Source of the DNA: a virus
DNA length: 30,447 nt
IMG/VR virus record: IMGVR_UViG_3300041405_000402
Coordinates: 1-30,447 of that record
Strand: one strand, 5' to 3'
A program made the translations under genes and the position numbers. Position 1 is the first letter of the stretch. Each line of letters starts with the position of its first letter. Under the pieces are notes generated by a model. It made no database searches and was not told the DNA's origin. It saw nothing but the letters and a program-made list of their open reading frames with translations. This document shows, piece by piece, positions 13,830-16,864 of the stretch.

Positions 13830-14036
13830 TCAGGCGGCGGTTCTTTGAGCCGGCAGCTGGCACGGAAATGGACGAACCTCCTCCGCTGTCAGCTTCCCGT
13901 CCTCATGTTCAATGACCAGGATTTCCCTGGCCGCCTTCAAGGCTTTTGAAATGGCTGGAGCGCTGACGCCAAGGCCCTTGGCGACAGCGGACTGACCAAT
14001 TCGCTCAACCAGTTCTGGCAGTGGCGTCTTCTTCAT
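13830..14036 (-). CDS. cro: Cro-like repressor
   Basis: Sixty-eight residues with a helix-turn-helix (ELVERIGQSAVAKGLGVSAPAISKALKAAREI) and a C-terminal TAEEVRPFPCQ typical of lambda-type Cro proteins of Pseudomonas phages. It is the first gene from pR, divergent from cI, and has GAGG seven bases before the ATG. It should bind the operator sites at 14071-14134, turning off cI and favouring lytic growth. Sequence, size and position all agree. Confidence 0.9.
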   Translation of the reverse strand: MKKTPLPELVERIGQSAVAKGLGVSAPAISKALKAAREILVIEHEDGKLTAEEVRPFPCQLPAQRTAA

Positions 14037-14067: not shown

Positions 14068-14096
14068 ATATTAACCGCCGGTTAGCTTTCAAGCAA
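14068..14096 (-). promoter_or_regulatory. pR promoter for cro and the early right operon
   Basis: Minus strand: TTGCTT, a 17-bp spacer, then TAATAT, near consensus. Operator site 1 (14071-14084) lies in the spacer and overlaps the -10 box, so repressor binding would block RNA polymerase. Transcription would start about 25 bp before the cro ATG. Confidence 0.82.
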
Positions 14097-14134
14097 TACC
14101 GGCGGTTGCCGCAATAAAATTAACCAACGGTTAA
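14071..14134. promoter_or_regulatory. OR operator cluster, three sites
   Basis: Three related dyads lie between cro and cI: TTAACCGCCGGTTA at 14071-14084, AATACCGGCGGTT at 14095-14107 and TTAACCAACGGTTAA at 14120-14134. The centres are roughly 23 and 26 bp apart. The same sequence recurs at 16825-16864. Site 1 covers pR and site 3 covers the cI transcription start, as in lambda, with a possible cI -10 box (TAAAAT) at 14115-14120. Expected ligands are CI and Cro. Confidence 0.85.
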
Positions 14135-14143
14135 ATTTCACGG

Positions 14144-15010
14144 ATGAGCAGAAAGAAAGAGCTGTCCCCAGAACTGAAAGCTGAGTGCGACGCCGCCAAG
14201 GCGCTTTTCGTATCGAAAAAGAACGCGCTCGGACTGACTCAAGCGAGTCTTGCAGCGGAGGCTGATATATCGGCCGCTGCGGTAGCTATGTACCTGAACG
14301 GAACGAATCCTCTGAACGCCAAGTTCGCGGCGGTTCTATCGCGCTTACTCGGTGTTCCAGTCGAGCGCTTCAGTAAGCGACTTGCGCGCGAGATCAGCGG
14401 GCTGACAAGTGTCGCCGACACATCAGCGGTTTCGACGCTCTCAGCCGCCGACATGGTCCGCCAGATGCTTGACAAGCAGGGCAAAGGCCTAACCGACACA
14501 GCCAGACAAAGATTGATGGCAGCCGCTGAAGCAGATGATGCCGGGGGCGCCATCGAGATTGACTACTACCGGCCAGGAGTTATGGGTGATGAGGTGTGGA
14601 TCGCACACTACGACGTTCGCGCCGCGATGGGTGGCGGGCAGATCCCGCACGACTATCCCGAAATGCTGCAGGACGTCCGCGTAAGCCCTCAACATCTGCG
14701 CGAGATGGGAGTCGAGTTCAAAGAGCATTTCCATCTGAAGATGGTAACCGGCTGGGGTCAGTCGATGGCACCGACGATCAAGCATCGAGATCCTCTGCTG
14801 GTAGACATCAGCGTCCGGGAATTCATGGGGGACGGGATTTACATGTTCTCCTGGGAAGGACATCTCTACATCAAGCGTCTCCAGTGGATCGGTGATGATC
14901 AGATCAAGATGATCTCTGATAATGAACGGCACCCACCGCTGACAATCAGGGCAGACGAAACTTTTATACAGGCTCGCGTGCTTCTGGTTTGGAATGCTCA
15001 ACTGGTGTAA
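14144..15010 (+). CDS. cI: CI-type repressor, S24 peptidase fold
   Basis: A 288-residue protein. Residues about 15-65 are a helix-turn-helix (FVSKKNALGLTQASLAAEADISAAAVAMYLNG). Residues 135-288 are the LexA/CI C-terminal domain with Ser207 in GWGQSMAPT and Lys244 in LYIKRL as the catalytic pair. It keeps the prophage silent by binding OR and OL. The leader from the putative pRM is short (about 17 bases) and there is no good ribosome binding site, reminiscent of lambda cI. The expected Ala-Gly cleavage site before the S24 core reads A-A-M-G-G-G (160-165), so self-cleavage may differ from lambda. The two rex-like genes follow on the same strand. Confidence 0.92.
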   Translation: MSRKKELSPELKAECDAAKALFVSKKNALGLTQASLAAEADISAAAVAMYLNGTNPLNAKFAAVLSRLLGVPVERFSKRLAREISGLTSVADTSAVSTLSAADMVRQMLDKQGKGLTDTARQRLMAAAEADDAGGAIEIDYYRPGVMGDEVWIAHYDVRAAMGGGQIPHDYPEMLQDVRVSPQHLREMGVEFKEHFHLKMVTGWGQSMAPTIKHRDPLLVDISVREFMGDGIYMFSWEGHLYIKRLQWIGDDQIKMISDNERHPPLTIRADETFIQARVLLVWNAQLV

Positions 15011-15087
15011 TGCTAGGCCTAACTCTCAAACAAATAGGCACGCATAACCGTATGACAGGGAAGCGAAGGCCTCAACAGGAAGTTAAT

Positions 15088-15930
15088 ATGTCAAAGACTC
15101 GTTTTAATCTGTTCAGGTACCAGCTACTTCCGAGAGATCGGTATTTTCAAGGTGACTTGTACGGCCCCAAATCGGTCGATGATTTGATAGAGCAGAAAAA
15201 TCGGATCTTTGCCGAAGCGCTAAAGCTGCCTACTGCATTCAAAAGCGAAAGAGCCGAAATAAATGTTCAAAGACTTTATGAAGACAAAGATTTCTTTCTA
15301 TTTAGGGTGGCGGTAAACAGGTCAGTAAATCTTGAAACGAAGGACTTTAGCGTAAAATCCGTCGACAATTGGCCAAAAATATTAGTGGCCATCTGGAATA
15401 ATCCAGAAATACAGCTCATTGCGGTGCAACACAGACTTCAAGCCTTTCAGCATTCACGCGCTGTTGCTAAATTAATTATGAAGTCTATTGAAGAGCCCTT
15501 AGCTCGACACCAGTTAATATCATCAGTAGAGCCTTTGATAGAAAAACGTGTTTTTTGGGATCTCGTTGAAAAACATCGGGGAAAAATCAAAAAGGTTGAG
15601 TTTGAGCTTGTTACTCCTAACATGGCCTCAATCTCGAAAGCCCTTCCCGAGGACCTGCGGTCATTTGCGAAAAAAACTAACGCCGTAAAAAGCACGCTTG
15701 CAATCGAGGCTGACCCAGGCGCGTCGCTAGTACTAGATAAAGCCGACCCAACAGTGGACGGACTCGCGTCTTACACAAGTGACGGCGGAGGCAGTGTTTC
15801 AATCACTTTAAGCGGTGTGAAGAAGAAAATAAATACTGCGAATGAAGTTAAGGAAATTGAGATTGGAGATGCTAAACTAGACGGATCGGCGGAGGATATC
15901 GCTAAAATACTCAAGGAATTGATGAAATGA
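15088..15930 (+). CDS. RexA-like protein, candidate phage-exclusion sensor
   Basis: A 280-residue soluble protein beginning MSKTRFNLFRYQLLPRDRYF; AGGAAG before the ATG at 15088 is a good ribosome binding site, and longer in-frame starts lie inside cI. Features seen: an FFLFRVAVNRSVN strand near 69-81, a block of ILVAIWNNPEIQLIAVQHRLQAFQHS near 95-120, a helical middle, and a glycine/serine-rich DGGGSVSITLSG near 235-250. I do not recognise a Pfam family. Size (lambda RexA has 279 residues), place right after cI, and a four-transmembrane partner overlapping by four bases match rexA. Weak likenesses to RexA (an xFLF strand, then a second hydrophobic strand and xGFA/QAFQ) are suggestive only. 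AT-rich, so probably acquired. Confidence 0.6.
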   Translation: MSKTRFNLFRYQLLPRDRYFQGDLYGPKSVDDLIEQKNRIFAEALKLPTAFKSERAEINVQRLYEDKDFFLFRVAVNRSVNLETKDFSVKSVDNWPKILVAIWNNPEIQLIAVQHRLQAFQHSRAVAKLIMKSIEEPLARHQLISSVEPLIEKRVFWDLVEKHRGKIKKVEFELVTPNMASISKALPEDLRSFAKKTNAVKSTLAIEADPGASLVLDKADPTVDGLASYTSDGGGSVSITLSGVKKKINTANEVKEIEIGDAKLDGSAEDIAKILKELMK

Positions 15931-16370
15931 TAAAACAGGTACTGACAAATACGCTAATTGCGCTAGGTATAGGATATCTATGCCAACTCCTGCAATCGTT
16001 TTGCCAGAGCCAGTTCCTCATCACCTTCTTGAAAGGCAACCTAATTACTTTGCTGATTGCGCTGCTCGCTATCAACTCTGGAACAATGGGCATTGTCCTA
16101 ACAAAAATACGAGAACTTATAGATAAGGCTGGCGCTGGATCGGAAGCCTTTCAGGCAACAAAAAATGAGATGCTGCTATCGATTAAAGAACAGATTGCCT
16201 TGATTGTTGTATCGGTAATCTTGCTTACCGTCGCCGACTCCGAATTAGTCAAACAGTCAAAAGAACTAGCAACTATATATCCAGTTTTGCTTTTCTCTTT
16301 ATTTTCATACTCCATCATTAACTTATACGATACTGCGAAAAGCGTGCTTATAATTATCGATTACGACTGA
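15927..16370 (+). CDS. RexB-like four-span membrane protein
   Basis: A 147-residue protein starting in an ATGA overlap with the RexA-like gene. Hydrophobic segments lie at about 4-22 (QVLTNTLIALGIGYLCQLL), 37-59 (NLITLLIALLAINSGTMGIVLTK), 88-105 (EQIALIVVSVILLTVAD) and 119-138 (YPVLLFSLFSYSIINLYDT), giving four spans with a charged loop between spans 2 and 3. Lambda RexB has 144 residues, four spans and a similar second span followed by basic residues (...RTRRLAKIRE against TKIRELIDKA). RexB acts as an ion channel opened by RexA on infection. By analogy this would depolarise the membrane of an infected lysogen. A strong terminator follows 26 bp downstream. Homology is not proven. Confidence 0.6.
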   Translation: MIKQVLTNTLIALGIGYLCQLLQSFCQSQFLITFLKGNLITLLIALLAINSGTMGIVLTKIRELIDKAGAGSEAFQATKNEMLLSIKEQIALIVVSVILLTVADSELVKQSKELATIYPVLLFSLFSYSIINLYDTAKSVLIIIDYD

Positions 16371-16395
16371 ATTACTGGATGAGCCAACATTAATT

Positions 16396-16425
16396 AAAAA
16401 AGCCCGCAAATGAGCGGGCTTTTTT
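16396..16425. terminator. bidirectional terminator, end of cI operon and DUF1654 gene
   Basis: A-run, GCCCGC, loop AAATGA, GCGGGC and T-run make a strong intrinsic terminator on both strands. It ends the cI-rex-like operon (last stop at 16370) and the convergent DUF1654 gene (stop at 16433). Confidence 0.9.
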
Positions 16426-16432
16426 ATGTCGA

Positions 16433-16747
16433 TCAAAACGGAGCGGCCACCTCCATCGCTACTTCGAACAGATTTTCTACCTTAGCGACTCGCTCCTCTT
16501 CGACTTGAGCATCCCACCTGAGCGTCACAGTTTCATCGTCGTTGTATGTCATGTCTATGCACGCCGTCTCCAACAGCCGGCCCATCACCTCCTCCCACTC
16601 TCTCTCACCGTCCGAGTCCAGTCGATGGATCGTCACCCAGCGCTGAATCTGCGCGACCGGGTGATTGATCATTGACGAGACGCGAAGCTCAAGACGTTCC
16701 AAGGCTGACATACCACCGCTTTCGAGCCGGTTTTGTTGTAGTGCCAT
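16433..16747 (-). CDS. DUF1654 family protein
   Basis: A 104-residue protein whose SALERLELRVSSMINHPVAQIQRWVTIHRLDSDGEREWEEVMGRL block is the DUF1654 signature, a family found nearly only in Pseudomonas and its prophages. Function is unknown. It is read leftward from a promoter just left of the OL cluster, so repressors there could affect it. AGGAG lies 14 bases before the ATG, rather far; an internal ATG at residue 13 is an alternative start without a better site. Ends convergently with the rex-like operon. Confidence 0.8.
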   Translation of the reverse strand: MALQQNRLESGGMSALERLELRVSSMINHPVAQIQRWVTIHRLDSDGEREWEEVMGRLLETACIDMTYNDDETVTLRWDAQVEEERVAKVENLFEVAMEVAAPF

Positions 16748-16824: not shown

Positions 16825-16864
16825 TTAACCGCCGGTATTGACGGTTTTGAAACCGCCGGTTAAT
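16825..16864. promoter_or_regulatory. OL operator cluster
   Basis: TTAACCGCCGGTA at 16825-16837 and AAACCGCCGGTTAAT at 16850-16864 match the OR sites, with a partial third copy (TTGACGGTTTT) between them. The cluster covers the pL promoter and lies 1.8 kb from OR with cI and its followers between, the lambda OL-OR arrangement that permits looping. Confidence 0.82.

Follow-up and report, generated by a model that had tools for sequence, protein, structure and literature searches.

What are the two genes that directly follow cI in this viral DNA, and do they form a RexAB-type module? The genes, designated hereafter as A and B, lie in a stretch of 30,447 nucleotides from a Pseudomonas-type bacterial virus (IMG/VR record IMGVR_UViG_3300041405_000402), the whole of which is referred to as the window. 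A preliminary description had placed them, as an AT-rich pair with a four-base overlap, within an OR–OL region ahead of a strong terminator, and both arrangement and location were confirmed (Table 1). The overlap consists of the bases ATGA, and the GC content of A (0.43) and B (0.40) compares with 0.573 for the whole window. The gene ahead of A was identified as encoding a CI-type repressor based on its Pfam matches to Peptidase_S24 (E 1.6e-16) and HTH_3 (E 7e-8); it also matched phrog_4, transcriptional repressor (E 7.6e-36). Clusters of the operator-like sequence TTAACCGNCGGTTA are present on both sides of cI and the pair. The window contained 14 matches to it at up to three mismatches, a number reached by 0 of 100 shuffles, and one of the OL-like sites, reading on the minus strand at 16850, had a single mismatch. 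The hairpin closing the operon begins approximately 25 bases past the stop codon of B, and the overall order, OR, cI, A, B, terminator and OL, is that of lambda. No promoter-like site was detected between cI and A by a scan that found none anywhere in the stretch. Between the terminator and OL lies a conserved gene of 104 amino acids (16433–16747, minus strand), which is also present in the phages VW-6S and SC_8.

Table 1. Features of the window around genes A and B
Feature	Position	Strand	Product or location	Basis
cro-like small gene	13830–14036	−	left of cI	
CII gene			left of cI, on the other strand	Pfam Phage_CP76, E 1e-24
OR-like operator cluster	14071–14134		between cro-like gene and cI	TTAACCGNCGGTTA at 14071 (0 mismatches) and 14120 (1 mismatch)
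CI-type repressor	14144–15010	+	288 aa, HTH and S24 peptidase	
Gene A	15088–15930	+	280 aa, soluble	open frame, AGGAAG a few bases upstream of ATG
Gene B	15927–16370	+	147 aa, predicted four-span membrane protein	hydropathy
Bidirectional hairpin terminator	16395–16426		closes the cI-A-B operon	13-pair stem, T-runs on both sides
OL-like operator cluster	16825–16863		right of the pair	TTAACCGNCGGTTA-type sites at 16825 and 16849, 2 mismatches each

Relatives of A were identified in Pseudomonas-type viral contigs (99, 98, 93, 73 and 53% identity), with more distant ones (approximately 30–37%) in prophages of E. coli, in Yersinia alsatica and in other viral contigs. Another is encoded by a tailless Vibrio prophage of 13.3 kb, with 42% identity to the E. 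coli query protein, and one more was detected at 50% identity in a gammaproteobacterial genome. In all 14 loci on a contig long enough to tell, the last 4 to 56 bases of A overlap with the start of a gene for a B-type membrane protein, and this pairing holds even where B is only 10–16% identical to the B of the window. Among measurable pairs, dN/dS was 0.06–0.10 for A and 0.05–0.23 for B, with values of 0.05–0.10 in most of them; the pair is under purifying selection. Because both genes are conserved as a unit, chance can be ruled out for the pair, and A-B is a real, conserved and co-selected two-gene unit. Of the complete E. coli genomes, 41 of 5,426 carry it, and the products are annotated there as 'hypothetical proteins'. 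Across species it is rare, with two positives in 369 evenly sampled gammaproteobacterial genomes, one of the two being the sample centre. A tblastn search with A gave no match among phages and one distant E. coli record among plasmids. Matches to A in BFVD were to three uncharacterised phage proteins, the best being A0A8S5PCY0 from phage ctgr818. The search with B gave a weak match (rank 18, E 1.6) to another ctgr818 protein, 156 amino acids long; the two matches (A0A8S5PCY0 and A0A8S5PEF7) hint at another distant pair, which is left out of the counts here.

The sizes of the two products had been likened to those of lambda RexA (279 amino acids) and RexB (144 amino acids), and this comparison is correct for the window proteins; across the family, A ranges from 280 to 302 and B from 147 to 166 amino acids. 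The four spans and charged loop predicted earlier for B, as in RexB, are in agreement with our hydropathy analysis, which placed the spans at residues 4–22, 31–49, 90–108 and 113–131 and gave a middle loop of 40 residues with five positive and five negative charges. The same prediction, four spans and a charged loop in the middle, was obtained for RexB, Sbash gp31 and CarolAnn gp43, and hydropathy predicted four spans in every B protein except that of contig L003, which had three at the threshold. A RexB-like 'LY-containing tail' had also been put forward; it is not conserved in distant members of the family and therefore provides no evidence.

No clear sequence family had been recognised for either protein, and database searches upheld this: neither A nor B had a significant match in Pfam, NCBIfam or PADLOC, PHROGs returned only a chance-level match, and no database has named these families. 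The RexA models PF15969, PDLC02339 and phrog_12654 gave nothing at E ≤ 1 with the window A or its relatives, and the RexB models PF15968, PDLC02340 and phrog_14878 matched none of the B proteins. As positive controls, lambda RexA and a RexA from the prophage contig L083 matched the RexA models strongly, and the same models readily found the divergent L083 pair. Judged by sequence, A-B therefore lies outside the RexA and RexB families as they are now defined.

Comparisons of A with RexA, by hhalign and by custom profile scores, stayed at chance level, also when more RexA sequences were included, and a control comparison of lambda RexA with actinophage RexA gave the same result. The hhalign comparison of A with the actinophage RexA-like proteins was at chance level as well, as was its positive control. 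Since lambda RexA and the actinophage RexA-like proteins also miss each other, this profile–profile test is short of power. The homology to RexA and RexB that had been suggested is so far unsupported, with models giving no match and profile comparisons at chance, the control pair equally so. Two local resemblances were considered and rejected. Around the hinge of RexA, the two proteins have an 'EPL' stretch in common (residues 142–151 of A and 129–138 of RexA), which ranked first among local matches in two scorings, but 18–32% of shuffles reached the same level. A local match of A to the actinophage proteins (Z approximately 3) joins unrelated ends, namely residues 103–114 of A and 343–353 of gp44. 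AlphaFold2 models built from shallow alignments had a mean pLDDT of 50 for A and 62 for B, too low for a comparison with the RexA structure 8TWQ. A search of PDB folds with these low-pLDDT models returned nothing significant, and because the models are so weak, fold matches obtained from them are meaningless.

Evidence on the nature of the pair came from its position. The preliminary description had proposed looking for the pair beside cI in Pseudomonas prophages, and relatives were found there, including a pair in a cI-linked slot on a contig designated both L011 and L073. Genes downstream of cI were read in 63 viral contigs whose repressor is of the same CI type as in L011 and in a further contig with the pair, L035, and the contents of the slot differed between prophages. 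Family tests were carried out on ten slot proteins, chosen mainly as large ORFs, which does not give an unbiased rate. In L083, the slot encodes a 319-aa protein, identified as RexA (PADLOC E 9.2e-72, Pfam E 1.3e-53), and an overlapping 154-aa four-span protein, identified as RexB (PADLOC PDLC02340, E 2.9e-28). L073 and L083 are 83% identical in cI, 80% in a small gene and 76% in the gene after the slot; between these common flanks, L073 carries the new pair and L083 the genuine RexA-RexB. The new pair therefore occupies the position that a bona fide RexAB has in a sister prophage. Other slots contained an IetS match with IteA upstream, that is, IetAS (L081), HEC-04 (L074, E 5.7e-216) and AAA/OLD-like ATPases (L104). 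The presence of RexAB, IetAS and HEC-04 in sister prophages indicates that this slot is a defence hotspot, in which the pair replaces rexAB.

The survey also recorded slot genes of other kinds. L131 has a PDC-M66B-like gene, and many nameless genes are present in the slots of L073 to L135, 0–4 kb downstream of cI. A three-gene set without a family name recurs in L079 (4927–6750), L091 and L109 (4995–6630); it encodes a weakly HATPase-like protein of 344–369 amino acids, one of approximately 108 and one of 166–167 amino acids, and the first gene had no PADLOC match.

The pair behaves as mobile cargo. DNA identity between the window and L011 is 68% over exactly 15084–16366, which corresponds to the pair, and two short stretches to the right of OL are similar as well, whereas the two CI repressors are only 24% identical; A-B moves as a unit. 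Conversely, the Pseudomonas phages VW-6S and SC_8 have cI and the region to the right of the terminator in common with the window and are without the pair. In VW-6S, the corresponding slot (L068, 2644–4305) encodes a member of the TIGR04255 family (E 1.8e-24) together with a protein of 198 amino acids that belongs to no known family. Two settings were found in E. coli, one following the integrase at the edge of a prophage integrated at icd, and one in another prophage between a hok-type and an ead-like gene. In Vibrio, the pair occupies an early accessory position in the tailless prophage (L021, 2178–3543; PQ189321), and tailless prophages have been reported to possess a variable locus enriched in defence genes (PMC11630473). 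As this prophage belongs to the tailless Vinavirales, the pair crosses between virus realms. Among the relatives from E. coli, Yersinia and Vibrio, the two genes do not adjoin cI, and co-expression with cI is therefore not a fixed feature of the family.

Taken together, we consider it probable (about two in three) that A and B constitute a superinfection-exclusion (abortive infection) module of RexAB type that is encoded by the prophage, expressed in lysogens and formed by two undescribed protein families. The earlier proposal of an undescribed Rex-type system thus stands as regards a conserved, cI-linked cargo in the slot of true RexAB and is so far unsupported as regards homology to RexA and RexB. 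For the window pair we infer co-expression with cI, sensor and effector roles, action at the membrane and an exclusion phenotype. By analogy with RexABpp of Pseudomonas putida, CarolAnn and lambda, A-B most likely works like RexAB, with a soluble sensor triggering a membrane effector so that the infected cell is stopped. The putative sensor A would be made at a low level in lysogens from the cI promoter and would sense an invading phage, probably through an intermediate of its replication or recombination or through one of its proteins. Once active, A would switch on B, an oligomer of which may open a pore or damage the inner membrane, and growth would be arrested before the invader matures. 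Precedents for such a mechanism are RexABpp (PMC12894663), CarolAnn 44/43 and Sbash 30/31; in RexABpp, over-production of RexA alone leads to RexB-dependent arrest and membrane leakage (PMC12894663). As to its origin, we tentatively suggest, at somewhat less than even odds, that A-B is unrelated to RexA/RexB by descent, an independent sensor and membrane-effector system that converged on the RexAB architecture, took the cI-linked rexAB slot by allelic replacement and spread to E. coli, Yersinia and tailless Vibrio prophages.

The same placement and cargo nature would be expected if the logic were reversed, with the soluble A as the antiviral effector and the membrane protein B holding it inactive. 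Such roles exist in the Rex-like pair gp30/31 of mycobacteriophage Butters (PMC12894663), and architecture alone cannot separate the two arrangements; in lambda, CarolAnn, Sbash and RexABpp, the remaining Rex-like pairs described, the effector is, however, the membrane protein, and we regard a Butters-like reversal as unlikely. The tight translational overlap of two small genes that are mobile between unrelated elements would also suit a toxin–antitoxin or addiction pair that maintains the prophage and contributes to phage defence only incidentally or not at all. Against this, the soluble partner is large (280–302 amino acids), no toxin or antitoxin family matches A or B, and it is RexAB, IetAS and HEC-04 that occupy the slot in sister prophages, which makes an addiction function quite improbable.

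That exclusion is secondary for A-B appears very improbable. Lambda RexA does bind DNA non-specifically and bias the bistable switch (PMC11077077), and the A protein of the window is basic, with a predicted pI of 9.1, but several members of the A family are acidic, down to pI 5.1. Moreover, the elements from E. coli, Yersinia and Vibrio retain the pair in locations far from cI, and RexABpp has no effect on cI expression (PMC12894663). A RexAB-type exclusion module remains our preferred reading of the locus. How RexAB recognises infection has been an open question for approximately 70 years, and as of January 2026 descriptions existed of only five Rex-like systems (PMC12894663). An additional family, taking the place of rexAB at one and the same locus and also occurring in E. 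coli, provides comparative material testable in standard E. coli hosts, and the defence hotspot immediately after cI in Pseudomonas prophages lends itself to mining.

Among known systems, lambda RexA-RexB (PF15969/PF15968) resembles the pair in its position after cI in the OR–OL region. The likeness to lambda rexA-rexB claimed at the outset holds for gene order, protein sizes and the four predicted spans of the second protein, to which can be added the true RexAB homologue in the same slot of the sister prophage L083. It does not extend to the overlap, the lambda genes being separated by a 15-base gap; further differences are the lack of any HMM or profile match between RexAB and A-B and the location of distant A-B relatives away from cI. 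The RexA fold (PDB 8TWQ) consists of a split globular domain and a dimerisation domain and is RdgC-like; RexApp resembles 8TWQ with a Z-score of about 8. The actinophage Rex-like systems CarolAnn gp44/gp43 and Sbash gp30/gp31 are, like the pair, two-gene prophage defences with a soluble and a four-span protein encoded by overlapping genes, and the CarolAnn genes adjoin the repressor as in the window. Their A-type proteins are larger (356–372 amino acids) and have no significant sequence similarity to A. RexABpp (PP_5643/PP_5644), from the P. putida prophage P1, also combines a soluble with a four-span membrane protein and lies downstream of a CI-like repressor in a Pseudomonas prophage (PMC12894663). 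In L011 and L035, two small genes separate cI from the pair, as in P1. An identity of L011 with P1 was considered and rejected, L011 having no HicA gene and an A protein of different mass. RexApp-His has a mass of 37.5 kDa compared with 31.6 kDa for A, RexBpp has a residue Y181 whereas members of the B family extend to only 147–166 residues and are without the reported RexBpp residues, none of the seven matching in the window B. Compared by mass, length and reported residues, RexABpp is not an ortholog of A-B, but in biology and layout it is the nearest described system.
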